Shown here one piece after another: positions 26,787-51,120 of a DNA stretch of 64,000 bases (within the stretch, counting starts at the first letter, position 1; each line of letters starts with the position of its first letter). A program made the translations under genes and the position numbers. The notes under the pieces are model-generated. The model was not told where the DNA came from, searched no databases, and saw nothing but the letters and a program-made list of their open reading frames with translations. Source of the stretch: Dehalobacter sp. (GTDB lineage Bacteria; Bacillota; Desulfitobacteriia; Desulfitobacteriales; Syntrophobotulaceae); contig JAMPIU010000053.1 of the NCBI GenBank assembly GCA_023667845.1, positions 124,001 through 188,000 on the forward strand. The letters run 5' to 3'.

Positions 26787-26798
26787 ATAATTCTTGCT

Positions 26799-26828: not shown

Positions 26829-26844
26829 CGGAGGTGGATACACT

Positions 26845-29539: not shown

Positions 29540-29558
29540 TCCTATATGTTTATTGGGG

Positions 29559-29588: not shown

Positions 29589-29609
29589 CATACTGAAGGA
29601 GAAAATCTA

Positions 29610-30017: not shown

Positions 30018-30062
30018 ACCTTTCAGATAGATTATGTCCAGTCGGGGAGGAGGTGTGGGTTA

Positions 30063-32775: not shown

Positions 32776-32804
32776 AGGTGATAATAAATTAAGGAGTGGT
32801 TTTT

Positions 32805-33566
32805 TTGAGAAGAATATTATTTATTTTAGGTTTGGTTATCGCTTTAGGGAGCGGCATAGGCCTTTATTTTTATATGGATTATGCAAAAGGTTTGATTCCT
32901 GTGGTTTATGCCGCCACAAATATTACTGAAGATACCGTTATAAGCGCACAACAATTGAAAGTTAAAAGTGTTCCAAGGGAAAGTGTGCCTTCAGGAGTTG
33001 CAGCAAGTATCAACCAGGTAGTAAATAAGTCTCTTAATTGGCCTTTAAAAGAAGGCGATCCGGTGCGGTTGGATAAAATAGAACAAAACACAAAGGCGGA
33101 GATTGAAAATTCGAGATTAATCGCCTTCAAAACAGATTACAACGGATCCATTGCCGGCCTTGCTAAATACGGACAAACCGTTGACCTTGTTTTAACTCTT
33201 GACCCAAAACAAACGGGTAATTTATCGCTTGCCGGATATATTGTCACTGATTTATTTATTGAAGCGACTGCTGATTCATCGGGGAAGATATTATCTTCTG
33301 CAGATATCCCGAATTTAAATAAATCAGCATCTGTTGTGAGTTTATCAGGCAGTGAGCAAACAACCGGTATCCCGACAGAAATAATAGCAAAGGTTACGCC
33401 TAAACAGTTTTTAGTAATAAAACAAGCCGAAACAATGGGAACTATTTCGTTGGGGCAGCGCGATAAGAATGCCAAGAATCTATACAATATAAACGATGTT
33501 ATCGAAAATTCACAGATGAATATTGGCAAAGATTTTATTGTTTCATTGCTTCAGCTTCAAAAGTAA
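32805..33566 (+). CDS. cpaB: CpaB/RcpC-like Flp pilus assembly protein
   Basis: A 253-residue protein with an N-terminal membrane anchor (ILFILGLVIALGSGIGLYFY), then a SAF-domain-like region (PVVYAATNITEDTVISAQQL; GDPVRLDKIE) and a beta-rich CpaB/RcpC part. CpaB acts in outer envelope steps of Tad pilus assembly. TTG 32805 is favoured over GTG 32796 because AAGGAG would overlap the latter. It is followed after 20 bases by the CpaE-like gene. Confidence 0.82.
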   Translation: MRRILFILGLVIALGSGIGLYFYMDYAKGLIPVVYAATNITEDTVISAQQLKVKSVPRESVPSGVAASINQVVNKSLNWPLKEGDPVRLDKIEQNTKAEIENSRLIAFKTDYNGSIAGLAKYGQTVDLVLTLDPKQTGNLSLAGYIVTDLFIEATADSSGKILSSADIPNLNKSASVVSLSGSEQTTGIPTEIIAKVTPKQFLVIKQAETMGTISLGQRDKNAKNLYNINDVIENSQMNIGKDFIVSLLQLQK

Positions 33567-33586
33567 GAGTTATTGGAGGAAATCTT

Positions 33587-34414
33587 ATGGTTGATGAAAA
33601 TAAAGCGGTTAATGAGCAGGCGAAGAAAATAATCGCCTTATGGAGTGTCTGCAGTGTTGGAAAGTCGACGCTTGCATGCAATTTGGCCCGGAAACTGGCA
33701 AAGGAAACAAACTTAAAAATAGGGTTGTTGGATTTTTCGCTAATAACGCCCTGCCTCCACTTATTTTTAGATCTGGAAGATAAAGAAAGCTCAATTGAAT
33801 ATATCCTTAAGTCCTGGCAGGATAATTATTCTTATCACGATTTGCTTAAGGAAAACGCCCACATAACGAAGAACCTTCCAAATTTATTATGTTGGACGGG
33901 ATTAATTAAAAACCCCCAATTAATTGATAAGCTGGGAGATATTCAAGCCCGTACAATAATATACGAGTTATTCGATCTCGTAGATATTCTTTTTATTGAC
34001 GTCCAAAGCGATACGCTGCTTATTTCCACCGACGCAGCGCTGAAAACAGCAACAGATGTGTTGGTCGTTGTAGACCAGAACAGAAACACGATTGAGAACA
34101 CTGCTAAATGGCTTAATAATTTACATGCCCGAAATATGGATATGAATAAATTCCAATTAATCATCAACCAATATTCCAATAAAGCAGTGTACACGAAAAA
34201 TAAAATTGAGGGCAATCTTTCGCTGCCCCTGCTTGGAACAGTACCGGGCGTTTCCAAGGTGAATTATGATAACTCCACTGTCTCGCTGGTTCCCTTATTA
34301 AAATACGGTAAATTTGATAAAGCAATTGAAAATATTCTGCTGCGGCTTCATTTAACTAAAGCCGTAAAAAAACGACGTATATTGCGGGATTCGAATTGGA
34401 GGATATTTAAATGA
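33587..34414 (+). CDS. CpaE/TadZ-like ATPase of the pilus locus
   Basis: A 275-residue MinD/ParA-superfamily protein. The P-loop is WSVCSVGKSTLACNLARKL, lacking the Gly-rich first part of the usual motif but keeping GKST; FIDVQSDT is the Walker B region and VLVVVDQNRNT follows. CpaE/TadZ proteins localise the Tad pilus to the pole. No receiver domain is attached, unlike many CpaE proteins. GGAGGAAAT precedes ATG 33587. It overlaps cpaF by 4 bases. Confidence 0.78.
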   Translation: MVDENKAVNEQAKKIIALWSVCSVGKSTLACNLARKLAKETNLKIGLLDFSLITPCLHLFLDLEDKESSIEYILKSWQDNYSYHDLLKENAHITKNLPNLLCWTGLIKNPQLIDKLGDIQARTIIYELFDLVDILFIDVQSDTLLISTDAALKTATDVLVVVDQNRNTIENTAKWLNNLHARNMDMNKFQLIINQYSNKAVYTKNKIEGNLSLPLLGTVPGVSKVNYDNSTVSLVPLLKYGKFDKAIENILLRLHLTKAVKKRRILRDSNWRIFK

Positions 34415-35835
34415 GAATCAGTTCAGTTAAAGCTGTTGAACAAAAAGCGTATGACACAGAAAGCAAAAATCATCTATATCAAACAACAAGTATTATTCAG
34501 ACAATATTAACTGAAAACCACCCTAAATTGCTTAACGATGCTATTTATGGGGTAGGTGAATGTCAAAAACAAATCCGCAATGTTATAAAAGATATTATTC
34601 GTCATGAGAAACTCGATGTACCCGATATGAGTATCGATGAAATTGCTTGGGAGGTATATAAATACATCATTGGGTATGATGTTATCCATGACCTTCTTCT
34701 TGATGCTGAGATAACAGAAATATGCGTAAATGGTCCGTATCAAATCACGTATAAAAAGAATGGAATCAGGTATTTAGCAAAGGATATTAAGTTTACAGAT
34801 CTGGCTCATCTTGAAAAAATAACAGAACGCATCTTGCTCACCTGCCACTCAGAAGCTAATGAGGGCAGCCCTATGGTGGATAATGCTTGGCTTCCGGATC
34901 GAAGCAGGGTTGTAATTAATAAAAGCTCGATCGTCCCTAGCCACGGAATTACATTAAATATCCGGAGATTTAGGGATAAAAACTTTTCCTTGGAAGAACT
35001 TGAAAAGATCGGGACGTTAAAAATAGCTGAAAAAAGCAGATCTCTAAATTCTCTAAATAAAGAGCGTGAAGTGATCAAAAGTATTCCAAGCAAAGAACAT
35101 TCTTATCGACAGCTTGATTTTATTCGGGATGTTGTAAGAGCGGGCGCTACTATCATAGTCAGCGGCGGGACTCACACCGGAAAAACAACTTTGATTCGTA
35201 CCTTGGCCTCAATTTTTCAAGATCTTATTCCGGATGAAAATGTTCCTGGCGATCCCGAAAGCGGTTTGCGAATAATAACTATCGAAAATGGCCCGGAGCT
35301 GCAGCTGGTAAAATACTACCCTGGTCTTGAGGTAGTTGAAATGCTTGAACGCGACACAAAATACAATCCTTTAGGGGTAGAGGAAATCTACCCGCAGGTT
35401 ATGAGAATGGACCCGGATGTAATTTTGGTTGGTGAAATCCGTTTTCCGATTGAGGCAATGTATACTTTGCGGGCCATGCGATCCGGTCACGCCAATACAA
35501 TGGCCTCAATTCATACCTATGACGCTGAATCATGCTGTCAGGAATTAAGAACCAAGGTTCAAGCTATCTCCAATGTCAGTGACAAGGTAATTAACACAGA
35601 AATCGTCACGGCAGTGGATATTATTATCCAGTTAGGGATAGTGGATAGAAAAATTGAAATTACCCAAGTCGCTGAATTAGATCTGGATTCGGAGTGTAAT
35701 ATTGTTATTAAAGATATTTTTAAAAGAGATAGCGACGGGAAAATGATCTTTAACCTCATAAGCAAAAAACTTGCAACTCGTCTTATGGCCAAGGGCAGAA
35801 AAAATGCAAGTGATGTTAAGAGGTGGTTGGTATGA
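34411..35835 (+). CDS. cpaF: CpaF/TadA-type pilus secretion ATPase
   Basis: A 474-residue hexameric ATPase of the Tad system. Family motifs include LLLDAEITEICVNGPYQI, Walker A SGGTHTGKTTLIRTLA (about 250-265), IENGPELQL, Asp box MDPDVILVGEIR (Walker B), and the His box GHANTMASIHTYDAESCC. It drives assembly (and possibly retraction) of Flp pili. It overlaps both neighbours, so the pilus genes form one operon. Confidence 0.9.
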   Translation: MRISSVKAVEQKAYDTESKNHLYQTTSIIQTILTENHPKLLNDAIYGVGECQKQIRNVIKDIIRHEKLDVPDMSIDEIAWEVYKYIIGYDVIHDLLLDAEITEICVNGPYQITYKKNGIRYLAKDIKFTDLAHLEKITERILLTCHSEANEGSPMVDNAWLPDRSRVVINKSSIVPSHGITLNIRRFRDKNFSLEELEKIGTLKIAEKSRSLNSLNKEREVIKSIPSKEHSYRQLDFIRDVVRAGATIIVSGGTHTGKTTLIRTLASIFQDLIPDENVPGDPESGLRIITIENGPELQLVKYYPGLEVVEMLERDTKYNPLGVEEIYPQVMRMDPDVILVGEIRFPIEAMYTLRAMRSGHANTMASIHTYDAESCCQELRTKVQAISNVSDKVINTEIVTAVDIIIQLGIVDRKIEITQVAELDLDSECNIVIKDIFKRDSDGKMIFNLISKKLATRLMAKGRKNASDVKRWLV

Positions 35836-36788
35836 CGCTTGTTCTTTGTTATGGAATAAGCATCGGGCTTTTATTGTCTGTCATTGTATGGTTTCTCGGG
35901 AAAAAAGAAAAGAAGCAAATATCAGGTTTCATAAATGAAAGGATATACTATTTGCAAGACAAAGTTAAAAATAACAACAGGATAAGTAATTTTGTGAGAT
36001 ATTACAATAAAAAAATCTACATTACAAATTTGAAGTTGAGCTTAAAAGCTCTTTTTTTTATTAGTATAGGGTTTTGTTTCATTTCTTTTTTCCTCTCAAT
36101 AGTGATTCTTTCGGAAAAAATTCCGAATCCCACCTACCAGAATCCGGGAGCTGTAATCGTAAGCCATAATATTTTTGGGATTGTTATTTTTATGATTGTT
36201 GGCTTCATGATCCCCTGGGTATTGTTAAATTTAATCTATCACAGTACGCGAAGAATGTTAAATAAACAGGCCTTGAACACTTTCAATCTTATATTAAACA
36301 ATTATATCGTGCGCAATAATCTTGAAGCTGCAACCTGGGATTCAATTGCTGCCATGCCTTCTCAAATGCGGTCTTTGTTTAGCCGAATCCAGTCCCGGGT
36401 CAATAATGGAGAAGAATTCGATACGGTTGTCTATAAAATATCGATACTTCTAAAACTGCAGTCTTTCAGGGACTTTTACAACGTCATCGTTTCTTCTAGG
36501 CTGGCCGGGGGTAACACAGAAGACCTTTTATACAGGCTTACAGATAAAATCAGATCAAGAAAAAACAGGGCACAATCAATTAAAGAGGATCTTAATCCGC
36601 TAATCTCGAAAGCTGTGGCTTTTACGCTGGTAATGATTCTTACGTATTTAGGCGTAAGTCTTGTTTGGCCAGATTCAATAGCCCTGGTAAAACAATCCTC
36701 AATAGGACACCTTTATATCAACTCCATAATAATCTCCATTTTAATTGAGACTGCTCTATTGCTGAAATTTTTATCAATGGAGGATTAA
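35832..36788 (+). CDS. tadB: TadB-like inner membrane platform protein
   Basis: A 318-residue protein with membrane segments at the N-terminus (LCYGISIGLLLSVIVWFLG), near 90-110, 120-145 and the C-terminus, and a T2SSF-type cytoplasmic domain between (ALNTFNLILNNYIVRNN; SSRLAGGNTEDLLYRLTDKI). This is the TadB/GspF layout. ATG 35832 has AGAGGTGG upstream; an earlier GTG (35823) is less likely. It overlaps cpaF by 4 bases. Confidence 0.82.
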   Translation: MTLVLCYGISIGLLLSVIVWFLGKKEKKQISGFINERIYYLQDKVKNNNRISNFVRYYNKKIYITNLKLSLKALFFISIGFCFISFFLSIVILSEKIPNPTYQNPGAVIVSHNIFGIVIFMIVGFMIPWVLLNLIYHSTRRMLNKQALNTFNLILNNYIVRNNLEAATWDSIAAMPSQMRSLFSRIQSRVNNGEEFDTVVYKISILLKLQSFRDFYNVIVSSRLAGGNTEDLLYRLTDKIRSRKNRAQSIKEDLNPLISKAVAFTLVMILTYLGVSLVWPDSIALVKQSSIGHLYINSIIISILIETALLLKFLSMED

Positions 36789-37700
36789 GTGAGTATGAAT
36801 ACATTATTGATTTGTTCTATAGGAATTTCACTGGGTTTGTTACTGCTTTTTGCGGCGTTTTTTATTAAGACCAACCGCAAGGAGTCTAAGAGAATAAATT
36901 CTCTTCGCACTGCTGTGCTTTCATATAGGCAAGCCCAGGATACTTCTTTAGAAAAACTTCGCAAAAAGATGTCAAATTATATCTCTAAATTATTAAGCAA
37001 AAAGCCGGGGCATAATCGTTCGGCGAACATGCTGGAAATACTCAAACAGCCTGGAAAACCAATGCCGATAGGTTATGCGGAATATAAGACTTTTAAAAAT
37101 TTATCCCCTTTCATATTTGCAGTCTTATTTGGCTTTGCAGGCTTTTCCACGAAAGACTTGATGATGGCAATAGGGTTGATCTGTGTAGGCTTTTTTGTGG
37201 GGAACATAGCGCCCACAGCCATACTTGCGTATTTTTACAACCAGTACAAAAATGCCCTCATCAATGAGTTGTCGGAAATCATGGCCTATATTGTTGATTT
37301 GAGAAAAGCGGGACAAACCATAGCCGATTCTATTCGCGGGGCCTTATTCGCGACCAATAAATTGCGGCCTCACTTGGAGAAACTTTTGCAGGATATGTCT
37401 ATAACAGGGCCAAAACCGGCGCTTGCCAAATTGAGTAAAGAAACTGATATCGATGAATTGAAAAATCTCGCGGATATTTTAATGCAATCTATCACCATTG
37501 ATAGTTCTAATATGGTTGCATATATGGCAAGCCGGTCACGGGACATTGAATATATTGAGGGGTTAAAAGAAATAAGGCGGTATAAAAACAAAAAAATGCT
37601 TGTCGAAGCCTTGACTGCAATCCCATTTGTTATGATCCCTCTCATAATTCTTGTCCCGCTGCTATACCAGGCCAATCAAAGCCTTGGCCAAATAATGTAG
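36789..37700 (+). CDS. tadC: TadC-like inner membrane platform protein
   Basis: A 303-residue protein, partner of TadB. N-terminal membrane segment (LLICSIGISLGLLLLFAAFF), then one or two segments (LSPFIFAVLFGFAGFSTKDL; MAIGLICVGFFVGNIAPTAI), a T2SSF domain (ELSEIMAYIVDLRKAGQTI) and a C-terminal segment (VEALTAIPFVMIPLIILVPL). GTG 36789 or ATG 36795 is the start, after GGAGG. Its place before the pilins is standard. Confidence 0.82.
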   Translation: MSMNTLLICSIGISLGLLLLFAAFFIKTNRKESKRINSLRTAVLSYRQAQDTSLEKLRKKMSNYISKLLSKKPGHNRSANMLEILKQPGKPMPIGYAEYKTFKNLSPFIFAVLFGFAGFSTKDLMMAIGLICVGFFVGNIAPTAILAYFYNQYKNALINELSEIMAYIVDLRKAGQTIADSIRGALFATNKLRPHLEKLLQDMSITGPKPALAKLSKETDIDELKNLADILMQSITIDSSNMVAYMASRSRDIEYIEGLKEIRRYKNKKMLVEALTAIPFVMIPLIILVPLLYQANQSLGQIM

Positions 37701-37713
37701 GAGGTGGCAATAT

Positions 37714-37893
37714 GTGAAAAAAATTGTCTGCGGTCTGGCAACAGTGCTGCGTGATGAAAGGGGGGATCTTGTTCAAAATATCGTATTGCTGTTAGGGGGC
37801 ATTCTGGCAACGATAGGCATTGCAGTAATTCTTTACAATACAATAACAGCCAAAATAGCAAATGACTCAGCCGGAATGAGCAAACTTAATTAA
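37714..37893 (+). CDS. Flp-type pilin 1 (59 residues)
   Basis: A short prepilin: a basic leader (VKKIVCGLATVLRDERG) then DLVQNIVLLGGILATIGIAV, a hydrophobic helix, and a short tail. GTG 37714 follows AGGAGGTGGCAAT. Cleavage is expected after the Gly, as in Flp/class IVb pilins. The +5 residue is Asn rather than the usual Glu, a deviation shared with the next pilin. Identical GDLVQNI motifs tie the two together. Confidence 0.75.
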   Translation: MKKIVCGLATVLRDERGDLVQNIVLLLGGILATIGIAVILYNTITAKIANDSAGMSKLN

Positions 37894-37913
37894 GAAGGGG
37901 GGGTTATTTTTTT

Positions 37914-38090
37914 ATGGGAAATTTTCTAAAAAACCTTTACAAAGATGAAGGCGGAGATCTTGTTCAAAATATTATTTGGATATTCGGCGGTGTTCTGGCT
38001 ACGGTGGGAGCTGTATCGGTGCTGTTTGTCACGATCCGGGGCAAACTCACAAGTATGAATACCAGTATAACGAATATCACTACTCCTTAA
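37914..38090 (+). CDS. Flp-type pilin 2 (58 residues)
   Basis: A second prepilin starting at ATG 37914: leader MGNFLKNLYKDEGG, then DLVQNIIWIFGGVLATVGAV, a hydrophobic helix, and a polar Thr/Ser/Asn-rich end. It shares GDLVQNI with pilin 1, and the same Glu-to-Asn deviation at +5. One of the two is probably the main subunit. An 80-base gap follows before the TadE-like genes. Confidence 0.75.
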   Translation: MGNFLKNLYKDEGGDLVQNIIWIFGGVLATVGAVSVLFVTIRGKLTSMNTSITNITTP

Positions 38091-38168
38091 TTAAAATATT
38101 CCTCACTGTGAGGAGGAAAGGAGACGGCGGATAGTATATGTTCAGACGTATGCTATCCGCTTAAAATA

Positions 38169-38603
38169 ATGCTTAAATTACTAAAAAAAACAATAGAAAA
38201 CCCTGATAATGAACGGGGATCTACCTTGATTGAGTTCTTAATTGTTTTTGCATTATGGATGGCGATATTCTTCACATTCATATCGATGTTTTTCCTTAAC
38301 AATCTGCAGGGCTCAATGGTTAATGCCGTGAATCTCGGGTTGGAAAGGGCTGCTATTGTTGGAGGAACTACGACAGAGGTCCGAAATCTAATTAAAGATC
38401 AACTGAAACACACCGGCGTCGATACTAGTTTATTTACGATTACAGGGTCGGGCAGTGATGTAAGCCGCACTGCTTATGGACAATATATAACAATTTCGAT
38501 AACCGGACCCCGAAAGTTTACTGATTGGTCAAGTGGGCATCCGGTTTCCAAATCGGAGACGGTTACAGTAACCAAAACGATCATGAGTCAATATTTGCCT
38601 TAA
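38169..38603 (+). CDS. TadE-like pseudopilin 1
   Basis: A 144-residue protein with prepilin signal ERGSTLIEFLIVFALW: Gly at -1, Glu at +5, then a hydrophobic helix. The rest is an exported domain of beta character (ALERAAIVGGTTTEVRNLI-like segment). TadE/TadF proteins are minor pseudopilins cut by the prepilin peptidase encoded downstream. It abuts the next gene. Confidence 0.75.
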   Translation: MLKLLKKTIENPDNERGSTLIEFLIVFALWMAIFFTFISMFFLNNLQGSMVNAVNLGLERAAIVGGTTTEVRNLIKDQLKHTGVDTSLFTITGSGSDVSRTAYGQYITISITGPRKFTDWSSGHPVSKSETVTVTKTIMSQYLP

Positions 38604-39140
38604 ATGAGGGTGTTTATGAAGAAGATATATAAAATAATAAAAGACGACCGGGGTTCAACTTTAATTGAACTGCTGATTTTTTTGGGCATTTCTCTTGTCC
38701 TTATTGGCTGGGCGACGGATTACTACCATGCCATAAACATAAAACGGGGAATAACAGACAGTATAAAATTTGCCGCTTTAGCGGCCAGCCAGCAAACCGA
38801 TCAGGCAAAATTAAACCAAGGTATTTTGGCTATAGACTCAACGCAAGCGGATGTTGTTTTTTTAGATATGTTAAAGAAAAATTTATCTTTAGACAATGAC
38901 CTGAATCCACTTCCTGGATCACCGGTTATTTATGTAAATAAAGCAACGCTTTATTATCAAACCTATAATTCTGATGTTTTGCCGGCAGTAAGCCCGATAG
39001 ACAGCCACGCTATCACTGAGCCGTCTTATGTTGTTTATATTGAAGTCAGAGTAAGTCGCGGCTTAACACAAATCGTCAATTCAACCCCTTATTGGACGAT
39101 TAAAGTAGCGAAAGACGCTGCATTAAAAATCTCACCATAA
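38604..39140 (+). CDS. TadE-like pseudopilin 2
   Basis: A 178-residue protein. Its signal DRGSTLIELLIFLGISLVLI again shows Gly(-1) and Glu(+5) followed by a membrane helix. The exported domain (SIKFAALAASQQTDQAKLNQ; YVVYIEVRVSRGLTQI) is not further recognised. Start ATG 38604 directly follows the stop of pseudopilin 1; a second ATG (38616) has GAGGGTG upstream. It is probably co-translated with its neighbour. Confidence 0.72.
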   Translation: MRVFMKKIYKIIKDDRGSTLIELLIFLGISLVLIGWATDYYHAINIKRGITDSIKFAALAASQQTDQAKLNQGILAIDSTQADVVFLDMLKKNLSLDNDLNPLPGSPVIYVNKATLYYQTYNSDVLPAVSPIDSHAITEPSYVVYIEVRVSRGLTQIVNSTPYWTIKVAKDAALKISP

Positions 39141-39167
39141 TTTGAAATGTAAGGAATGATTAAATAT

Positions 39168-39686
39168 ATGGTTAATTATTTAGCATTACTGGCACCTTTA
39201 ACTATGTTGTTAATTTGTGTTGTGACGGATTGGCGGAAGCGGAAAATATATAATTGGGTGACAACACCCGGGTTTTTTCTCGGGATAATCCATGTAATAT
39301 GCGCCAAAACATATTCCGTAAATTATTGCGTTTCTTTCTTTTTCCTTTTCTTAATTCTCTTGTTAGTCTATTCCCACGGGGCAATGAGGGGAGGAGATGT
39401 TAAATTGCTGTCGGCTCTGAGCCTGTTTTTAACACCCGGAGCCTTCTTCTTTAATTTAGCGCTCTTTATGTTTTCAGCCTTCTTTTATTTCTTTTTTCAA
39501 ACTGTACGGGTTAAAGGTTTATCCCGAACTATTAATGATGTGAAAACAGATTCCCTTGTTTTGATCGCTATCGGAGAAAACAACAATTCTTTTGCAAATG
39601 GCGTAAAAAGCAGATTTTTTCCCGGTGGCGGTGCCGCTTTGATCTCATTATGCTATATAGTTACTTCATTCTTGTTTTGGTATTAA
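39168..39686 (+). CDS. Prepilin peptidase (TadV/CpaA-like, A24 family)
   Basis: A 172-residue membrane aspartic peptidase that processes the pilins. The first catalytic Asp is in VVTDWRKRKIYNW and the second in MRGGDVKLL (GxGD-type motif), both on cytosolic ends of membrane helices. Later there are four more hydrophobic stretches. AAGGA adjacent to ATG 39156 suggests the next ATG, 39168, as start. It closes the Tad locus; the next gene is on the other strand. Confidence 0.85.
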   Translation: MVNYLALLAPLTMLLICVVTDWRKRKIYNWVTTPGFFLGIIHVICAKTYSVNYCVSFFFLFLILLLVYSHGAMRGGDVKLLSALSLFLTPGAFFFNLALFMFSAFFYFFFQTVRVKGLSRTINDVKTDSLVLIAIGENNNSFANGVKSRFFPGGGAALISLCYIVTSFLFWY

Positions 39687-40547: not shown

Positions 40548-40602
40548 TAATTTACCCCCCGCTCGCTTGGTGAAATATTTTTATATTTTCCATATAATCT
40601 CA

Positions 40603-40806
40603 TCAAATAGCTTGAATATAATCCGTCAATTCATCGTAATCCTTTAAGGCAAATACTTTTACTTCATAATCGTTGTGAACTGATAAATCATATATTCTAT
40701 TTTTCATTTTCTTGTTGGTTAACAGTAGAAAGTCACCTTCATGAATAAGTATTCTCCTTATATCCTTGTAAAGTCCTTGATTATCGCTTGCCCTAATTCT
40801 TATAAT
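40603..40806 (-). pseudogene. Open frame with no start codon, possible gene remnant
   Basis: Read on the minus strand, about 65 codons run open to a stop at 40603 (DNQGLYKDIRRILIHEGDFL, LLTNKKMKNRIYDLSV). No ATG, GTG or TTG start lies in the first part; only an internal ATG (MKNRIYDL) is available. The composition looks coding. It overlaps the 3' end of the SIR2/AbiH-like gene by a few bases in another frame. It may be a truncated C-terminus left after a deletion. Confidence 0.35.
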
Positions 40807-42199: not shown

Positions 42200-42257
42200 A
42201 TAAAAATGACCTTTCTTTCTAATGCAAGTAGCTTTACAAATAATGGTACAACATGAG

Positions 42258-43304
42258 TCAATCAACATCAACTATTTTCGTCAATTCCGATACTTGCCTA
42301 ATATCCAGAACGTTCATTAATCTGAGTAAGTAGTAACAGTCTGGATTCGTGTCTCCGCTTTCCCACTTTTGATATGTTCTTAGTGATGCACCAATCCAAT
42401 CAGCGATCTGTTGCTGTGTTAAGCCCTCTCTCTTTCTTATGTCTTTCAGTGCCTCAAAGTCAAACTCCATCAGTTGAGGACCGACATATAGCTCGTACCA
42501 AGCGTCGGAACCATCATCATTTGGTCCCCAACAATTCCGACCTCGGATTAATGTTTTAGGATTTGCTTCAACAAACAGATATCCCTTATGCTTTTCATTG
42601 ACCTCTGCCCATATGCGAGTGGCGTTTCTAACATCAACACCTATCCATCGCATAATCGGTCTTCCCTTTTCATCGCAAGGGAATGTACCTTCCATCCGGA
42701 AAATATTTTTCGTTCTGCCCACGTATTCCCCGATGAACATTTCCTTTAAATCAAAAATGACTGGGGGCAGTTTTTCCTTTTCGAGCAGACTATTATAGGA
42801 AATAAAAAAGTGTTGCGGCATTAGGTCCTCTATATCGTATTTTTGTGCTAACTCAAGATAATGCACCCATTGTAAAAGCAGGTCTGCTTGTTCGATGCGC
42901 CCACTTTGAATAATGGGGTATTCAAAGATCTCACTCACAGAAATTTTATAATCGTATAATAACTTTTCAAGCGTTTTATAAAAAACTTCAATTTTGTCGC
43001 GATAGGATTCTTCATTCCTATTGTTAATATAAAAACTGTTAATATATTGGGACAAGCAACCTACCCTATCTGCGCTTATGTCTGGTTTATAGAAGTAGAA
43101 TGGAATTCTACGAAGGAATACTTTTTTGGGAATAGGTGGGAATAAGAGACTGTCTCCAATATTTGAGTAATCCTTGCCAAGATATGAAAATATCTCCCGA
43201 CCAACAACATCATGCCGATTCAGATAATCCAGAAATCTTTCTTGAACACCCTTATTTTGAAAATACTGTAATACAACTTGATTAATTAATTGCTCCATTT
43301 CCAT
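42258..43304 (-). CDS. Protein with C-terminal XRE-type HTH, partner of the AbiH-like gene
   Basis: A 348-residue protein. Its C-terminal ~60 residues are a clear Cro/CI helix-turn-helix (IRKREGLTQQQIADWIGASL, then RTYQKWESGDTNPDCYYLLR). The first 280 residues are not recognised; they include YHYLELAQK-like helices and a WIGVDVRNATRIWAEV segment. GGGAGGTAGG precedes the start. An XRE domain at the C-terminus of a long protein is unusual for a plain repressor, so it may sense or control the downstream effector. Confidence 0.7.
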   Translation of the reverse strand: MEMEQLINQVVLQYFQNKGVQERFLDYLNRHDVVGREIFSYLGKDYSNIGDSLLFPPIPKKVFLRRIPFYFYKPDISADRVGCLSQYINSFYINNRNEESYRDKIEVFYKTLEKLLYDYKISVSEIFEYPIIQSGRIEQADLLLQWVHYLELAQKYDIEDLMPQHFFISYNSLLEKEKLPPVIFDLKEMFIGEYVGRTKNIFRMEGTFPCDEKGRPIMRWIGVDVRNATRIWAEVNEKHKGYLFVEANPKTLIRGRNCWGPNDDGSDAWYELYVGPQLMEFDFEALKDIRKREGLTQQQIADWIGASLRTYQKWESGDTNPDCYYLLRLMNVLDIRQVSELTKIVDVD

Positions 43305-43784: not shown

Positions 43785-44051
43785 ATGTTTAAATGGGAAC
43801 TAGAGGTTTCAGATAACTTAAATCAAAGAACGGAAGGATTCAGCGCGTCGATTGGGATGAGCAAGGAAAGATTTATCAAGCTTGCCATATTGTCTCAACT
43901 GGAGGAAATGGAGATGAATATGGACGAACGTCGCAGAACTGCTGACTCGTCGGAGAAAAAAACACTTTCCCAAACCTATATCGAAATAGGCGATGAGGAT
44001 GTTCCGGTAGGCCCGAAAGGAGGATACGACCATGTTAAAGTTAAGAGTTAA
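43785..44051 (+). CDS. Ribbon-helix-helix-like small protein
   Basis: An 88-residue protein. The first 40 residues (KWELEVSDNLNQRTEGFSAS, then GMSKERFIKLAILSQLEEME) follow a strand-helix-helix pattern like ribbon-helix-helix repressors; the tail is polar. GAGGAG lies 8 bases before ATG 43785 (an ATG at 43779 is closer). It overlaps the lipoprotein gene by 20 bases, so it belongs to the same operon. It may regulate that operon or bind a leader; no firm function can be given. Confidence 0.55.
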   Translation: MFKWELEVSDNLNQRTEGFSASIGMSKERFIKLAILSQLEEMEMNMDERRRTADSSEKKTLSQTYIEIGDEDVPVGPKGGYDHVKVKS

Positions 44052-44811
44052 AACATTTTCTATTCTGCTTCTTGTTTTGTCCTTGATTCTTTTTGGATGC
44101 AGTTCCAAAAAGACTGAGCCGGTACAAAATGTTCCGGTCCAGCAGGATACCCAGACTCAAAAAGACAATCAAAGCCCGGAAAAAGAGCTTGAGCCGATTA
44201 AAGAGGCTGAGCCTGAGCAAGCTCCGCAGCCGGAAGTCAAAACCGAAACAAAAGCTGAACCTAGTGTTCAACCCAAAGCTCAGCCAAAGACTGAGCCGGT
44301 TGCGCCAAGTAAGCCGGAGCCGGAGCAGAAACCTCCCGCCAATTCCGGGTTATCTTTGTCTAGCTTGGGGCACCAGGTCGATGTCCAAAATAACGCTGCC
44401 AAAACAGACAAAGAAAAAGCCGCTTATGAAGCGGCCGCCCGGTGGCTGGTAGAGTTCAAATCTACCGATTATAAGAAGCTTGAGGCAATGTCGCAAATGC
44501 CGGGAAGCAGTTACACAACGGCGAATTTCCAAAATTCGTTGGACAACTTTTTTCCGAATTTCAAATCGGAAAGCATCAAAAACAAGGATACCAGACAAGT
44601 GAAGTCTTTATGCCTTGACGATATAAGTTTTAATCAAATCCCCCAATTAAATAATCAGGAAGGGGCTTTTCTGAAGTTAACTATCGTCATCAATGCAGCG
44701 CAGAATGGCGGCAACTTTTGGGTAAGCAAATATGAGGAAAGAATTATTTTGCTGCAGGTAAACGGGGTTTGGAAGGTCGATTCTGAAGAAAACACCCAGC
44801 TGAAGATGTAG
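44032..44811 (+). CDS. Lipoprotein with Pro/Glu/Lys-rich linker
   Basis: A 259-residue protein. The signal peptide ends in the lipobox LFGC (Cys 23), so it should be lipid-anchored outside the membrane. A ~80-residue linker rich in Pro, Glu and Lys follows (EPVAPSKPEPEQKPP). The C-terminal part (AAYEAAARWLVEFKSTDYKK; KYEERIILLQVNGVWKVDSE) looks like an NTF2-like or similar small globular domain. AAAGGAGG precedes ATG 44032. It is 11 bases before the radical SAM gene and may bind or display the modified product on the surface. Confidence 0.72.
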   Translation: MLKLRVKTFSILLLVLSLILFGCSSKKTEPVQNVPVQQDTQTQKDNQSPEKELEPIKEAEPEQAPQPEVKTETKAEPSVQPKAQPKTEPVAPSKPEPEQKPPANSGLSLSSLGHQVDVQNNAAKTDKEKAAYEAAARWLVEFKSTDYKKLEAMSQMPGSSYTTANFQNSLDNFFPNFKSESIKNKDTRQVKSLCLDDISFNQIPQLNNQEGAFLKLTIVINAAQNGGNFWVSKYEERIILLQVNGVWKVDSEENTQLKM

Positions 44812-44822
44812 GGAGTATGCTT

Positions 44823-46283
44823 ATGAATTTAATAGCCAAAGATGAATTGTATCAGTTCCGGAAATTCAACAACAAATACGAAAGGGAGCTGCGCAGCTCA
44901 GTTTACCAGGAAATTATGCCCGGCATGGGTTCCGGGGAGATTCTGGACGTTATTGCCGGCAATAAAAGCTTGATGTTCTCCATGTCTCTCAAGCAAATAA
45001 AAAGGCATAATGAGTATTTTGAGGGCGATATCGATTTCAAAAAGATGGCTGCCGCAGAAAATATTACTTACCCAGATAAAACTACTTTGATCGTAAAAAC
45101 GACGCATGCCTGCAACTTGCATTGTCCGTATTGTTACGACGTGATGTTCCGCAAGGATCTTGACGCGGAAGGGAACAAAGTCACGCTGGAAGTGGTCAGA
45201 CAGATTTTAAAAGTGTTCAAAGACGTGAATGTCGGCACCTGGATATGGCACGGCGGGGAGCCTTTGCTGATCGGAAAAGAATTTTATGAAGAAGCAAACG
45301 CCATGATTAAGCAGCAATTCAAGAAAGCCAATATTTGCATGCAATCCAATTTGACGCTTATTAACGAGGAGAATGCGGCTGTGCTAAAGAAGTGGAACAT
45401 CCGGCCGGGGTTCAGTTTCGATGGCTTAACAAATCATTTAACCCGGAAAAATACTAATCGGCTAATGCGGTCCATTGCCACGGCAGATAAAAACGAGGTC
45501 TTGGGCGGCGCGATCATGATTATCACGAAAGATAATATTCACCAAATGATTGATGAATATGAATACTTTAAACGCTTAGGCCTGGGCTGCAAGATGAACC
45601 TCATCTTTGCGGCCCATAAAAATATGAATTCCTATACTCTGGACGGGAAAATGGTTGCGGAGGAAATCTGCAAATTCTTTGACTATTGGATCTTAGACAC
45701 TTATAGGCCGGCTGATTCGGATCTGTGCGAGAGATATCTGATGGCCGCATTGGATGCCGGAGGTTCCTGCGCTTTTACGGATTGCGCCGGGAAGGATTAC
45801 TGGTTTTCAACCCAGCCCGACGGTACGGTTTATCATTGCGGCCGGGACTGGCCGGAGAGTGCCGCCGTGTCTTTCGGGAATATTTTTGAGATGGAATCAG
45901 TTGAGGATATCTTAAATCATCCCAACCATAAAAGATGGCGCGAGGGAACCCGGCGGATGCTGCAGCATTGCGGCGATTGTGATTATTTCTTCAGCTGTCA
46001 TAGCGGCTGCTACAATGACAACATCCAGTATGATTTGACCATGAATAAACCGGAGCCTGAAAATTGTTACACCCATCAGCACGTGATCAGTCATATCATA
46101 AGCGTTATTAATGAAATTGATTATGACGATATGCCGAAATATAACCCGAGATTCTTGAACTTTTTATTCAGGCATCAATTCAGAAGCGCCAAGATGATGA
46201 AAAATATTTTAGAAGAATCGATTAAACGGATCGAAACTCCTGCTCACGCTGAAAACAAGCTGAAGGAGTTTCTCGTTATTTAA
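44823..46283 (+). CDS. Radical SAM/SPASM peptide-modifying enzyme
   Basis: A 486-residue protein. The radical SAM motif is CNLHCPYC (about 97-104, CxxxCxxC), preceded by LIVKTTHA and followed by the GGEP motif (WHGGEPLL). The C-terminal SPASM domain carries Cys in CAFTDCAG, VYHCGRDW, CGDCDYFFSCHSGC and NCYTH, enough for two auxiliary [4Fe-4S] clusters. The organisation is that of anSME and RiPP maturases (cyclophane or thioether forming). The first 90 residues may serve as a peptide-binding region. It lies upstream of a repeat protein with aromatic-X-Asn triads, its likely substrate. ATG 44823 is better spaced from GGGAG than ATG 44817. Confidence 0.85.
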   Translation: MNLIAKDELYQFRKFNNKYERELRSSVYQEIMPGMGSGEILDVIAGNKSLMFSMSLKQIKRHNEYFEGDIDFKKMAAAENITYPDKTTLIVKTTHACNLHCPYCYDVMFRKDLDAEGNKVTLEVVRQILKVFKDVNVGTWIWHGGEPLLIGKEFYEEANAMIKQQFKKANICMQSNLTLINEENAAVLKKWNIRPGFSFDGLTNHLTRKNTNRLMRSIATADKNEVLGGAIMIITKDNIHQMIDEYEYFKRLGLGCKMNLIFAAHKNMNSYTLDGKMVAEEICKFFDYWILDTYRPADSDLCERYLMAALDAGGSCAFTDCAGKDYWFSTQPDGTVYHCGRDWPESAAVSFGNIFEMESVEDILNHPNHKRWREGTRRMLQHCGDCDYFFSCHSGCYNDNIQYDLTMNKPEPENCYTHQHVISHIISVINEIDYDDMPKYNPRFLNFLFRHQFRSAKMMKNILEESIKRIETPAHAENKLKEFLVI

Positions 46284-46298
46284 GAGAGGTTGATATTC

Positions 46299-47492
46299 AT
46301 GATTAATATCTTTAAGAAAAAACAAAAATTTCCCCCAAAGAATCAGACGCAGGAACTGTATTACTCAGTTCCTTTATTGTTTGATTATGGATATATTCAG
46401 GAATTAATAAGGCTTAACAGCCAGGATAAGGCGAAGTATAAAATCCGCTCCGTATATAACAGTTTGCCTGTTACTTCCTATGCAAAATCAGGACATGAAC
46501 ATGGCCGGTCGGTTAATTTGCAGGAAGACAGCGGCAAAATCCGGACTCTGGAAGATTTAAAGCCCTATATCAAAAAGCTTTCCGATAACGGGATAGCGTT
46601 CATTTATCTGATGAATAATATCTCAACCGTTTCCCTGTATGACTTTGAATCGAATATTCCCCAACTGAAGCAGTTTGTCGAGCATCTGTCGGATATCGGG
46701 GTGAGAAGTATTACTGTCGGGAGCCAGCTTCTTGCCGACTTCCTGAAAGAGGAATTCAGCGGGCTGGCAGTAAACGCTTCAACGATGATGGATATCCGGT
46801 CAATTAACCAGGCGAAGTATGTCAGCGAAAATCTAGGGATCGCCAATATCATTCCTGCTTCCGATCTCAATAAAGATTTTACTTTTATTGAATCCTTTAA
46901 AAAGCTGCTGCCTGATCTTGGCTTGGAGTTGATGGCCGATGAGGGCTGTATATTTTGTTGTCCGACCAAGAATATTCACTACGCCTTGTTTGGCAAGCAG
47001 GAAAACATTCATAAATGCAGTCCGTTATTCCGGGAATTCCCTAAATTCATTTGCGATCAGATAACCTTTAAAAGTCCGGCAATTCAAATGGTGCTGAACA
47101 GGATTATTTACCCTTGGGAAATCCCCGATTATGAGAAAATAGGGGTTAATAGTATCAAGCTGGTTGGCAGGGATCACCCCAAGCCGGAATTGGTCAATAA
47201 AATAAAGGCCTACATGTTTGGCGTGACCGATCCGGAATATGCCCTGAATGAATTCTATAATACTTACAATTCACGTTTTATGAACAAAGTTTTCCATCCG
47301 TACGGGACGCTGAAGATGAAGGAAATATTTGAGTTTTTGCCAAAGCTCGATTATTTCCTGGAAAAAAAGCCCCAATGCGCCGCCCAGTGCGGGGCCACAT
47401 GCAAGTATTGTTTCAATAATGCGGAACAGATTGAGAATTATGTTGCGGGGAAAGGGCAGGGGGATCCATTGTCCTGCGATGTAGGTGAATGA
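46299..47492 (+). CDS. U32-family-like protein of the modification operon
   Basis: A 397-residue protein. The TIM-barrel segments GIAFIYLMNNISTVSLYDFE, VNASTMMDIRSINQAKYVSE and IIPASDLNKDF match peptidase U32-type proteins. Cys residues (DEGCIFCCPTK, HKCSP, and CAAQCGATCKYC at about 360-371) could bind an iron-sulfur cluster, as in the UbiU/UbiV and RlhA/TrhP members that hydroxylate in the absence of oxygen. It could thus modify the repeat protein rather than cleave it. TTG 46290 is possible, but ATG 46299 has GAGAGG upstream. It sits between the SPASM enzyme and the repeat protein. Confidence 0.7.
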   Translation: MINIFKKKQKFPPKNQTQELYYSVPLLFDYGYIQELIRLNSQDKAKYKIRSVYNSLPVTSYAKSGHEHGRSVNLQEDSGKIRTLEDLKPYIKKLSDNGIAFIYLMNNISTVSLYDFESNIPQLKQFVEHLSDIGVRSITVGSQLLADFLKEEFSGLAVNASTMMDIRSINQAKYVSENLGIANIIPASDLNKDFTFIESFKKLLPDLGLELMADEGCIFCCPTKNIHYALFGKQENIHKCSPLFREFPKFICDQITFKSPAIQMVLNRIIYPWEIPDYEKIGVNSIKLVGRDHPKPELVNKIKAYMFGVTDPEYALNEFYNTYNSRFMNKVFHPYGTLKMKEIFEFLPKLDYFLEKKPQCAAQCGATCKYCFNNAEQIENYVAGKGQGDPLSCDVGE

Positions 47493-47493
47493 T

Positions 47494-48261
47494 ATGGCAA
47501 GAACATTTTCCAGATTGAAAAAATTGCTGTTTGCCTTTCTTTCACTAAGTATCCTTCATACATCAATAACTCAAGACCTGGTTCTTGACAACAATCACCA
47601 GGATCAGCCCAAAGCCAAGGAGGGAAAATACTCCAAGGCTTTGGGCCTTAAGTTTTCCTTGCAGCCTGAAAAAGCTTTCGCTTGGGTGGAATGGTCCTGG
47701 CCTAACTCCGGATGGACCAATTATGGAAATTACGGCGCTTATACCGATGTCTACAACAATACTTACGGCAATTATGTAAATTGGAACGCCAATTACTCTA
47801 ATACCGGTGTTTGGGAAAACCATACGCAATGGGAAAATCATACTGAAACATGGAGCCAATATTCTAATTGGACTGCTTATTCTAATTACAGTAACTACAG
47901 CAATTATGGTGATTGGGGCGCTTACAGCAATTATTCCAACTATAGCAATTGGAATAATTGGACGCCGCCCCCATCGGTTGTTGCAAGTGTACAGGCCGTC
48001 GCATTTCCAAACACAACAATTCAGATTTCAGCAACAACAAACGGGACCACCACTTTCGTCACTGCAACGAATTCTTTAAATTCAACAGTAATTACCTTTA
48101 CGAATACCGGCGGAAATGCATGGGTTGGATATTTTAATGTACCTGCCGGGACAACCGTTCAGCCGATAACTTTTTATGTTACTGCTAGTAATAGTTCCGG
48201 ATCGAGTAATGCTATTGCCGTCACAAATGTAAAGCACTTTCAAAATGTAATTACTCGATAA
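47494..48261 (+). CDS. Secreted aromatic-X-Asn repeat protein (likely substrate)
   Basis: A 255-residue protein. Residues 1-27 look like a signal peptide (RLKKLLFAFLSLSILHTS). Residues about 74-157 are a run of three-residue units starting with Tyr or Trp: WTN, YGN, YGA, YTD, YNN, YGN, YVN, YSN, WEN, then YSN YSN YSN and again YSN YSN YSN WNN. I count 16 exact aromatic-X-Asn triads and about 7 variants. The repeat is not due to recent DNA duplication: Tyr, Ser and Asn codons all vary. A Pro-rich hinge and a ~95-residue beta-rich, Thr/Asn-rich domain (NTTIQISATTNGTTTF) follow. ATG 47494 has AGGTGA upstream. It is the best candidate target of the neighbouring radical SAM enzymes. Confidence 0.82.
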   Translation: MARTFSRLKKLLFAFLSLSILHTSITQDLVLDNNHQDQPKAKEGKYSKALGLKFSLQPEKAFAWVEWSWPNSGWTNYGNYGAYTDVYNNTYGNYVNWNANYSNTGVWENHTQWENHTETWSQYSNWTAYSNYSNYSNYGDWGAYSNYSNYSNWNNWTPPPSVVASVQAVAFPNTTIQISATTNGTTTFVTATNSLNSTVITFTNTGGNAWVGYFNVPAGTTVQPITFYVTASNSSGSSNAIAVTNVKHFQNVITR

Positions 48262-48335
48262 ATTAAATCATCATTTCTATTCTTTTCACTGTCCGGAATG
48301 TTTTAAAGATATTTTTTTTTACGAGGAGTGTTTCT

Positions 48336-49316
48336 ATGAATATTATGTTAAATAATTACTGCAACTTGAAATGTTCATATTGCTTTGCAAATTGTGATCC
48401 GAAAAACAAGGTCAATATTTCCGATGATAATTATCAATATATCATTAATTTTTTAAAAAAATCAGCGCATGTTGATTTAAGGTTGCTTGGGGGGGAGCCG
48501 ACACTGCATCCGAACTTTGAAAAATGGGTGAATCAAGGAATCGATGATCCATTTTTTCGGAGAATCCAGGTTTTCACCAATGCCATTGCTTTTGATCATG
48601 CCTTGAGCCGATCTATAGCGGATAATAAAGTTTCATTCTTAATTAATTTGAATGGGCCTGATGTAATCGGTGAGTATCTATATAATAAGACAATAAGTAA
48701 TGTAGAAAACCTTGTATTTGAATATCGGAGAAGAAATATCGAACCCCAGGTTACTCTCGGCATTAATATCTTTGAGCCGAATTTTAAATATCAATATATT
48801 ATTGAGCAAAGCAAAAGGCTAAAACTAAAAACCATCCGATACAGCATTACTGTACCCTCAGATAATAATCAGAAAGGCAGTCTTGAACATTACGAAAGTT
48901 TTGTAGCCGGATTAGCTGAGTTTTTAGATGATTGCCATAGAAACGGAATTTCTCCCCATGTTGATTGCAATAATCCGCCCAAGTGTATCTTTACAAATGA
49001 GCAGCTTGTAAATTTCATCTACTCGGGTTTTGATCTGATTCACAAGGGGATATGTTCGCCGGTTATGGATATAAGGCCCGACTTGAGCGTCGCCCGATGT
49101 TTCGTTTTTGAAGATTATCTGAGTGTGAATATACAAGACTTTAATACCGTTCAAGATGTCAACGATTTTTTTCTGCGTGAGATTGACAGTAAAAGATACA
49201 GTAACCCTCCGTTTAAGCAATGCCCCGGATGCAGGTTCTGGGACGAAAAGAAATGTATCGGCGGTTGTTTGGGCTATAGTATCAGGGGAAAATCATCTGC
49301 ATGCTGTGCCATATAG
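48336..49316 (+). CDS. Second radical SAM enzyme of the operon
   Basis: A 326-residue protein with CNLKCSYC at residues 9-16, only eight residues from the start, so it has no N-terminal recognition domain. LRLLGGEPTLHP is the GGEP motif; the SPASM-like end has CSPV, CFVFED, CPGCRFWDEKKCIGGCLG and two more Cys. ATG 48336 has ACGAGGAG upstream. It follows the repeat protein by 74 bases. It may act on the same substrate or on a second position of it. Confidence 0.78.
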   Translation: MNIMLNNYCNLKCSYCFANCDPKNKVNISDDNYQYIINFLKKSAHVDLRLLGGEPTLHPNFEKWVNQGIDDPFFRRIQVFTNAIAFDHALSRSIADNKVSFLINLNGPDVIGEYLYNKTISNVENLVFEYRRRNIEPQVTLGINIFEPNFKYQYIIEQSKRLKLKTIRYSITVPSDNNQKGSLEHYESFVAGLAEFLDDCHRNGISPHVDCNNPPKCIFTNEQLVNFIYSGFDLIHKGICSPVMDIRPDLSVARCFVFEDYLSVNIQDFNTVQDVNDFFLREIDSKRYSNPPFKQCPGCRFWDEKKCIGGCLGYSIRGKSSACCAI

Positions 49317-49742: not shown

Positions 49743-49770
49743 GCTGCAGATACTTCTCTGCAGCTTTTTG
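49743..49770 (+). terminator. Riboswitch expression-platform terminator
   Basis: GCTGCAGA (49743-49750) pairs perfectly with TCTGCAGC (49757-49764), followed by TTTTTG. It lies between the aptamer and the ablA start. Confidence 0.82.
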
Positions 49771-49836
49771 TTTTGTATACCACAAATGTTGAGGATGACA
49801 ATCCTCGATGAGAATCTGAAGGGGGAATTAAATAAT

Positions 49837-51120
49837 ATGCAAAGAAATTATAGTGATATACCCTTATATAAAAATGTAACGGAAGAACAATGGCAGGACT
49901 GGCAGTGGCAGATTTCCAACAGAATCACAAGGATTGAGCAATTGGAACAGGTGGTCAAGCTTACTCAGGATGAGCGTCAGGGAGTGGCGGTAAGTCTAAA
50001 AAAATTACGCATGGCAATAACACCCTATTATTCTACACTTATGGATCCAAATGACGAACATTGCCCGGTAAGACGGCAAGCAATTCCAACGATTCATGAA
50101 ACCAAAATATCCAAGTTCGACTGTAGTGACCCGCTGCATGAAACAGCCGACTCGCCGGTTCCCGGCCTTACTCACAGATATCCCGATCGTGTGCTGTTGC
50201 TTATCACTGATCAGTGTTCAATGTATTGCCGCCACTGTACAAGAAGACGATTTGCCGGGCAAGAGGATAAGGCGCTTTCCCTGGATAATATCAAACGGGC
50301 AATCAACTATATTAAAGCGCATAAAGAAGTCAGGGATGTGCTTTTGTCGGGCGGGGATCCATTGTGTCTCTCTGATGACAAGCTGGAAGCAATTATAAAA
50401 TCAATTCGGGAAATTAAACACGTGGAAATAATTCGCATAGGCACTAGAACACCGGTTGTCATGCCTCAGAGAATCACTGATAAGCTCTGCACAATGCTGA
50501 AAAAATACCATCCAATTTGGCTGAATACGCACTTTAACCACCCCAAGGAACTGACAGCTGAGGCCAGGGAGGCCTGCGAAAAATTGATTGACGCAGGAAT
50601 ACCTTTAGGCAACCAGTCGGTGCTTCTAAAAGGCATTAACGATTGTTCGTATATTATGCGCGATTTGGTGCAAAAACTGGTAAGCTCCAGAATCAGACCA
50701 TATTACCTTTATCAGTGTGACCTTTCAGAAGGAATAGAGCATTTCAGAACTCCGGTTTCCGTGGGAATAGAAATCATGGAAATGCTGCGTGGACATACCT
50801 CAGGGTTAGCCATTCCACAGTTTGTTGTGGACGCTCCGGGAGGTGGAGGGAAGATTCCGGTCAATCCACAATACTTGATTTCATATTCTCCTGAAAAGGT
50901 TATTCTTAGAAATTTCGAAGGTGTGATTTGCGCGTATACAGAACCAAAGAATAAAACGCACCAGTGCCAAAAATGCGGCACGTGCGGTAAATTCAAGAAT
51001 AAAGAATCTCGGGGATTAGAAAAGTTATACAGAGATGAACAAGTATGTTTGATCCCAAGTGTAAACGTAAGACTCAACAAGAGGGAGGGCTTCCATGAAT
51101 ATAGAACAAGACGACTGTAA
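49837..51120 (+). CDS. ablA: Lysine 2,3-aminomutase
   Basis: A 427-residue KamA-family radical SAM enzyme making beta-lysine from L-lysine with PLP and SAM. The motif CSMYCRHCTRR (about 127-137) gives CxxxCxxC; LLSGGDPL (GGDP) and HPKELTAEAREACEKL follow. The PLP Lys is expected in the C-terminal part (VVDAPGGGGKIPVNP). Near the end Cys in CQKCGTCGKF is a zinc site of the family. Start ATG 49837 has GAAGGGGGA upstream; an earlier frame-start at 49768 lies in the riboswitch terminator. It overlaps ablB by 26 bases; together they make N-epsilon-acetyl-beta-lysine, an osmolyte. Confidence 0.93.
   Translation: MQRNYSDIPLYKNVTEEQWQDWQWQISNRITRIEQLEQVVKLTQDERQGVAVSLKKLRMAITPYYSTLMDPNDEHCPVRRQAIPTIHETKISKFDCSDPLHETADSPVPGLTHRYPDRVLLLITDQCSMYCRHCTRRRFAGQEDKALSLDNIKRAINYIKAHKEVRDVLLSGGDPLCLSDDKLEAIIKSIREIKHVEIIRIGTRTPVVMPQRITDKLCTMLKKYHPIWLNTHFNHPKELTAEAREACEKLIDAGIPLGNQSVLLKGINDCSYIMRDLVQKLVSSRIRPYYLYQCDLSEGIEHFRTPVSVGIEIMEMLRGHTSGLAIPQFVVDAPGGGGKIPVNPQYLISYSPEKVILRNFEGVICAYTEPKNKTHQCQKCGTCGKFKNKESRGLEKLYRDEQVCLIPSVNVRLNKREGFHEYRTRRL

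Follow-up and report, generated by a model that had tools for sequence, protein, structure and literature searches.

A radical SAM cassette with an aromatic triad-repeat protein beside a Tad pilus operon in Dehalobacter, and its relatives in phage tail modules

The window considered here is a stretch of 64,000 nucleotides from Dehalobacter sp. (GenBank assembly GCA_023667845.1, contig JAMPIU010000053.1, positions 124,001 to 188,000 of the forward strand), and positions refer to it unless another locus is named. Six co-directional genes at 43785-49316 (all on the + strand, with intergenic gaps of -20, 11, 18, 1, and 74 bases) form a cassette that encodes two radical S-adenosylmethionine (SAM) enzymes, here rSAM1 and rSAM2, a U32-like protein, a lipoprotein, a small RHH/RelB-like protein, and a repeat protein, REP, in which aromatic residues are followed two positions later by Asn. 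REP, the proposed substrate, is probably a secreted structural protein linked to a Tad pilus, with its triads processed many times over by the adjoining radical SAM enzymes.

The cassette and its triad-repeat protein

REP (47494..48261, 255 residues) consists of an N-terminal hydrophobic helix, a triad region (residues 64-158, 47683..47967), and a C-terminal beta-sandwich-like domain (residues 161-235, 47974..48198). The triad region carries 27 Tyr/Trp residues and 17 exact aromatic-X-Asn triads, against 5.9 ± 1.8 (maximum 14) in 20,000 shuffles of the same residues; aromatic pairs at a spacing of three number 18, against 7.2 ± 2.0 (maximum 16). An earlier note on this DNA had recognised the repeat, which stands far above the shuffles, and had counted 16 exact triads where residues 64-158 alone hold 17. 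When the open reading frames (ORFs) of the window are ranked by aromatic-X-[Asn/Asp] content, REP is far ahead, with 19 in 90 residues and five in the runner-up. Its ten Tyr-[Ser/Gly]-Asn triads are encoded by eight different 9-mers, which means that the repeat is maintained as protein sequence and is no fresh DNA expansion. Copies of REP of 255, 258, and 258 residues differ in the length of the triad region mostly by whole triads. AlphaFold2 predicted the helix (residues 2-25), a disordered triad region, and the C-terminal beta-sandwich at moderate confidence (pLDDT about 57-81). REP had no NCBIfam match at E 1, its model had no Foldseek match at E 0.001, and PDB sequence searches returned nothing useful for REP or the U32-like protein.

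The first enzyme, rSAM1 (44823..46283), has the motif WIWHGGEP and Pfam Radical_SAM (2.2e-14) and SPASM (4.1e-8) domains, both above cut-off. The curated model that it fits best is that of DynA, the dynobactin maturase (130 bits, cut-off 450), and its scores against cyclophane-maturase models are likewise below cut-off for AmcB (76.4/425 bits/cut-off), GrrM/OscB (73.7/310), YhhB (60.1/445), FxsB (50.9/370), and XyeB (38.7/450); a PDB sequence search gave only MoaA/ChlB-type matches. Its N-terminal domain (44823..45077), marked by ELxxFRKFNNxxER, is a separate small gene in phage and prophage relatives. The second enzyme, rSAM2 (48336..49316), has a Pfam radical SAM domain and extra Cys at its C-terminus.

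The U32-like protein (46302..47492; Pfam Peptidase_U32, E 5.8e-12) raises the question of whether it could itself be the main modifier, acting as an O2-independent Tyr/Trp ring hydroxylase that yields adhesive residues of DOPA type, while the radical SAM enzymes attend to its cofactor or to a minor step. Its relatives UbiU/UbiV hydroxylate without O2 through a 4-Cys [4Fe-4S] site (PMC6747719), and the window protein combines the U32 domain with four invariant Cys residues (C216, C220, C239, C251) and a second group, C359-x3-C-x3-C-x2-C370. However, the spacing of the invariant residues, CX3CX18CX11C, departs from CX6CX15CX3/4C and CX6CX16CX38C, the other triad-repeat cassettes that were read showed no U32 gene, and an AlphaFold2 model from eight sequences (pLDDT 40) was too poor to place the Cys residues. 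We regard this role as improbable.

The remaining two genes open the cassette, and both are conserved in its other copies. The small RHH/RelB-like protein (43785..44051; NCBIfam RelB-like 0.0073, far below the cut-off) is a possible regulator of the cassette. The lipoprotein (44032..44811) has the lipobox LILFGCSS, a Pro/Glu/Lys-rich spacer, and a C-terminal domain. The ORFs lie at the positions given in the earlier note, and Pfam bears out its U32-like protein and its two radical SAM enzymes, one of them with a SPASM domain; that note had also named the lipoprotein. No protease or transporter gene was found within the cassette. Directly downstream, at 49768-51946, lie genes for AblA (lysine 2,3-aminomutase) and AblB (beta-lysine N-acetyltransferase), an osmolyte pathway; their linkage to the cassette is not kept in all copies.

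Conservation of the cassette with Tad pilus genes

The cassette is kept as a block in eight copies from six Dehalobacter-group genomes, out of 83 genomes in the class, two of the six having two copies each. Searches with REP, the U32-like protein, and TadC each matched the identical six genomes, and no TadC was found in the other 77. The bearers include records of Candidatus Dichloromethanomonas elyunquensis and of a Peptococcaceae metagenome-assembled genome (MAG). Gene order is the same in all cassettes (RHH, lipoprotein, rSAM1, U32, REP, rSAM2), although in two the RHH frame was hidden by a longer opposite-strand ORF during gene picking. The earlier note had proposed to check whether the enzyme genes co-occur with homologues of the repeat protein, and they adjoin every close REP homologue in the class. 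Among 398 genomes of the phylum outside the family there was no further match to the U32-like protein at 1e-20 and a single relative of rSAM1, in genome G382.

In seven of the eight copies, Tad genes and cassette adjoin on one contig; in the remaining copy (G056) the cassette contig carries the operon end, and TadC is on another contig. In the window the Tad operon, overlooked in the earlier note, occupies 32796-39686 (+ strand), 4 kb upstream of the cassette. It begins with a CpaB/RcpC-like assembly protein (32796..33566; Pfam SAF 2.8e-10; RcpC 0.0012, below cut-off), a TadZ-like MinD/ParA ATPase assigned by Pfam CbiA/ParA and operon position (33587..34414), the TadA/CpaF pilus ATPase (34411..35835; Pfam T2SSE 3.7e-24), a TadB-like protein (35823..36788; Pfam T2SSF 8.7e-6), and a TadC-like protein recognised by position and membrane profile (36789..37700; no Pfam match). 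These are followed by a Flp-type pilin of 59 residues with an ERG/D prepilin-type start (37714..37893) and a second Flp-type pilin (37914..38090), each identified by sequence and without a Pfam match, a TadE-like pseudopilin containing NERGSTLIEF (38169..38603; no Pfam match), a TadF-like pseudopilin (38604..39140; Pfam N_methyl 0.001, below cut-off), and an A24 prepilin peptidase, TadV (39156..39686; Pfam Peptidase_A24 3.1e-14). The identity of the operon is thus given by T2SSE, T2SSF, SAF, and A24 domains above cut-off, with the Flp-like pilins and TadC assigned by sequence and order only.

Two neighbouring features were also noted. Between the prepilin peptidase and the cassette lies a three-gene island on the opposite strand (39735-43304, - strand), which recurs in L042 and L045 and is absent from the other copies; its 468-residue protein is a weak match to the candidate defence family PDC-S21, and its 348-residue protein has a helix-turn-helix. 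Upstream of the Tad operon, at 22439-32000, conjugation-type genes (VirD4/TraG-like, VirB4-like, NlpC/P60-like) were read by eye, and this region may be an integrative element.

Relatives beside unrelated triad proteins

Distant relatives of rSAM1 and rSAM2 adjoin unrelated [Tyr/Trp/His]-X-[Asn/Asp] triad proteins in three settings: a second, independent Tad operon, the tail region of a prophage, and several phage tail modules. In Alkaliphilus transvaalensis and in a Clostridiaceae MAG, a cluster with a SecA-like ATPase, several radical SAM genes, and a His-X-Asn triad protein has TadZ-like, TadA, and TadB-like genes directly upstream. The SecA-like gene stands between the Tad genes and the rest of the cluster (L020 2555-4885; L021 2613-4916; Pfam SecA_DEAD 1.2e-67, L020 only) and may help to export the repeat protein. 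On the tree, enzymes of this sort must have been recruited to Tad operons at least twice, separately. The G382 locus, set between endolysin/holin and tail-fibre-like genes, has the rSAM1 relative, a separate small gene resembling the N-terminal domain, an rSAM2 relative (35%), more radical SAM genes, a subtilase, and a 385-residue protein with Tyr-X-Asn/Asp and His-X-Asn/Asp triads. Phage contig L074 has, after genes of Baseplate_J and Mu gp48-like type, a repeat protein (containing ..YSDHTNSGYAVYSDHNNTGY..), an rSAM2 relative, an N-domain gene, a radical SAM gene, and an rSAM1 relative. Arrays of His/Trp/Tyr-X-Asn/Asp also adjoin radical SAM genes in phage contigs L158, L164/L169, and L188/L198, with tail-like neighbour genes in L158 and L188.

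Sequence comparisons tie these enzymes together. The window rSAM1 groups with the L074 enzyme in the tree (support 100/99, 39-40% identity). A profile of the Dehalobacter rSAM1 N-terminal domain matches the small L074 protein (E 5e-5 in a small database), above all 2000 shuffles, and BLAST of the domain between L009 and L074 gave 1e-7; the match of the profile to L069 was weaker and was outscored by one of 2000 shuffles. The profile match, together with the conserved place directly before an rSAM1-type or other radical SAM gene, suggests that the free-standing small protein is a homologue of the rSAM1 N-terminal domain. In most triad loci tested the radical SAM enzymes, like rSAM1, have DynA, AmcB, YhhB, or TIGR04083 as their top models, three of which are models of aromatic cross-linkers; the exception, L020, scores best against a sulfatase maturase and then DynA.

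The placement of Asn and Asp was compared by counting these residues at offsets -4 to +5 from every Tyr, Trp, and His of each repeat protein, against shuffles. In the window REP and in the proteins of L021, L074, L158, L164, and L188 they peak at +2 (0.57-0.86, z 5.0-12.2), with values of 0.01-0.17 at +3. This peak is not a by-product of periodicity, since L158, L188, and L021 have no regular period. The motif across relatives is Tyr/Trp/His-X-Asn/Asp, a placement that matches the geometry of triceptide cyclophanes; the aromatic-X-Asn of the earlier note holds in REP and is too narrow for the relatives. Adjacency gave a second signal: an aromatic-rich protein (at least 16 Tyr/Trp/His in 60 residues) directly adjoins 6/10 rSAM2-family viral loci and 0/54 control radical SAM loci (Fisher 2.8e-6), two of the ten, L070 and L072, being close relatives of each other. 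Aromatic density over whole loci separates the two sets weakly; adjacency separates them better.

The rSAM2-family genes of other phages (L070, L076, L079, L081) adjoin repeat proteins that are rich in Trp or Tyr and differ in spacing, which in L070 and L077 is a four-residue W/Y-x-x-[R/N/Q/K/S]. In L077 the Tyr-x-x-Gln/Asn/Arg repeat protein, at about 9600-10340 downstream of the rSAM2 relative, has an open frame only when TAG stands for Gln, and this phage may be recoded. In Chlorobiaceae (L022, L023, L027), proteins with Tat-type signals and Tyr-Ser-Ser repeats lie beside rSAM1-like genes, with a Lcl_C domain in L022 and rSAM2-like genes also at L022 and L027. An armatimonadete (L024 7198-8297) has two tandem signal-bearing proteins with Tyr-X-Glu/Asp-rich tails adjoining an rSAM1-like gene, and in DPANN archaea (Nano-/Pacearchaeota; L026 7091-7387, L029 7100-7237) small His/Tyr/Trp-rich acidic ORFs, possible peptide substrates, lie directly 3′ of a DynA-like radical SAM gene. 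A Dehalobacter-only rSAM1 alignment had no match in the viral contigs, whereas a broader alignment did find relatives. INPHARED phages held no full-length rSAM2 relative, with partial matches only in Campylobacter phages and one faecal phage; the Campylobacter case was judged to be a different system, the stretch examined having no aromatic repeat. Plasmid relatives H8 (beside PqqD, YcaO, and TfuA) and H9 were set aside likewise, with no aromatic-repeat neighbour. A Ca. Thiodictyon plasmid (L148 6576-12653), with PqqD, an rSAM2-like radical SAM protein, an amidohydrolase, YcaO, and TfuA, looks like a different system of the type that makes ribosomally synthesised and post-translationally modified peptides (RiPPs).

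Proposed cross-linking and known systems

The triad, the similarity of the enzymes, and their recurrence beside unrelated triad proteins are best explained by multi-site cyclophane formation: on our best reading of these sequences, rSAM1, and probably rSAM2, would equip a secreted, pilus-linked REP with many three-residue cyclophanes. The earlier note's proposal of a multi-site substrate with putative triceptide-like cross-links is partly supported, through co-occurrence and the independent triad proteins beside enzyme relatives.

Several observations weigh against this reading. No curated cyclophane-maturase cut-off is reached by rSAM1, the hydrophobic helix of REP has no clear adjoining signal-peptidase site, and the presumed link of REP to the pilus is one of genomic linkage only. 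The adjacency threshold was picked after the data had been viewed, and at 15 the counts become 6/10 and 6/54 (p 0.002). The Tyr-rich rSAM2 neighbours of gut phages (L076, L079, L081) and the Tyr-Ser-Ser proteins of Chlorobi have no +2 Asn/Asp signal, from which it follows that rSAM1 and rSAM2 may do different chemistry. The enzymes could also modify REP in another way, by Tyr-Tyr, Tyr-to-backbone, or ether cross-links, aromatic C-N bonds, epimerisation, or C-methylation, with the triad spacing serving recognition or spacing only. The gut-phage neighbours fit such a modification, as do the four-residue repeats of L070/L077, which resemble the Trp-Asn bond that dynobactin has between i and i+3 (PMC11002830), and the choice of DynA as best curated match. 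It is nonetheless rather unlikely, because Asn/Asp is enriched specifically at +2 in several unrelated proteins beside rSAM1-type enzymes, even where aromatic spacing is irregular (L158, L188, L021).

A further adverse result came from an unbiased DNA search of viral contigs for (Tyr-X-Asn)x4, in which none of 15 in-frame ORFs, several of them low-complexity or in doubtful frames, had a radical SAM gene in the stretch examined. The motif alone is therefore not diagnostic of modification. The earlier note had held that repeats of this type widely found without radical SAM neighbours would speak against its proposal; the short phage runs go partly in that direction, and the close homologues in the class all have the enzymes beside them. 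Such aromatic, Asn-rich tails, and the Tad pilins encoded in the same region, lend something to the view that the enzymes act on pilins or a pilus-bound cofactor and that REP is an unmodified surface protein encoded nearby. This too we hold to be far from likely: in most phage relatives the triad protein directly adjoins the radical SAM gene with no pilus present, and REP is conserved as a block with the enzymes.

For multi-site cyclophane formation in REP, we infer the chemistry, division of labour, export route, and function as follows. The DynA-like rSAM1 would most likely remove the beta-hydrogen of the third residue and join that carbon to the aromatic ring, giving a 13- to 14-membered cyclophane and a change of -2 Da per triad, with its N-terminal domain, free-standing in phage systems, perhaps docking the substrate. 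A second modification, or the handling of a subset of residues, would fall to rSAM2, which may make a different bond because its neighbours include Tyr-rich proteins that have no +2 signal. The U32-like protein may add O2-independent hydroxylation, and would be an add-on of the Dehalobacter group, given its differing Cys spacing and that no U32 gene was seen in any further cassette read. The rigid product, C-terminal beta domain included, would then leave the cell and be displayed along with the Tad pilus, and the lipoprotein would anchor this product or the assembly machine.

The cross-links known to be made by radical SAM enzymes are those of small peptide products. The substrates here resemble surface proteins of a structural kind that carry tens of sites, set in the pilus operon of organohalide- and dichloromethane-degrading anaerobes and in phage tail modules. 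No open-access paper combining radical SAM, Tad pilus, and post-translational was found, nor one on phage cyclophanes; the kind of enzyme is known, and the substrate class and its setting are new in that the open-access literature yielded no description. The findings point to an undescribed O2-independent way of hardening or decorating surface proteins. If true, this would be covalent fibre-hardening chemistry needing no oxygen, carried out by enzymes working on many sites of one long protein, and a clue to host binding by phages with tail triad proteins. The wider proposal, which we regard as evenly balanced, is that of an undescribed general class of radical-SAM-matured structural proteins, whose long [Tyr/Trp/His]-X-[Asn/Asp] arrays become strained cyclophanes in a chain. 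Such a class would have been recruited on separate occasions to Tad pili (Dehalobacter group, Alkaliphilus) and to phage tail proteins, and would give stiff or protease-proof surface fibres without O2.

Among described systems, the triceptides (XncB, OscB, MscB, YxdB, HaaB, YhhB) come closest, with a radical SAM/SPASM enzyme beside an aromatic-X-X3 substrate. Triceptide enzymes join a Trp, Tyr, Phe, or His ring to the Cbeta of residue i+2, including Asn/Asp, and Trp-Cbeta(Asn/Asp), Tyr-Cbeta(Asp), and His-Cbeta links are known, so that there is precedent for Asn/Asp as X3 and for each of Tyr, Trp, and His in first place (PMC11002830). However, triceptide precursors are short leader-bearing peptides, matured and released, whereas REP has 255 residues, some 20 triads, and a conserved C-terminal beta domain, and its cassette, set in a pilus operon (or phage tail module), adds another radical SAM enzyme and a U32-like protein. 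Dynobactin and darobactin maturases (DynA, DarE) form Trp-Asn C-C bonds, and DynA is the best model for several relatives as well as rSAM1; dynobactin is a short antibiotic peptide with its Trp-Asn bond from i to i+3, and the rSAM1 score is far below the DynA cut-off. The His-Xaa-Ser (Hxs) system, predicted in silico by Haft and Basu (as cited in PMC9062424), likewise places a radical SAM pair (HxsB/HxsC) beside a triplet-repeat protein (HxsA), but REP has no HxsA match, HxsB gives 53/370 bits for rSAM1 and 20.8 bits for rSAM2, and the motif is aromatic-X-Asn in REP and His-X-Asn in Alkaliphilus. The Aro-Xaa-Xaa-Asn, H(Y)NR, and TVGG repeat RiPPs (PMC9062424) also have repeated aromatic/Asn or other motifs and several sites per radical SAM substrate, in few-repeat peptides from stand-alone clusters with no pilus or phage tail setting. 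Finally, UbiU/UbiV and other U32 proteins share the U32 domain and conserved Cys residues with the window protein, which differs in its Cys spacing, its extra C-terminal Cys group, and its radical SAM partners.

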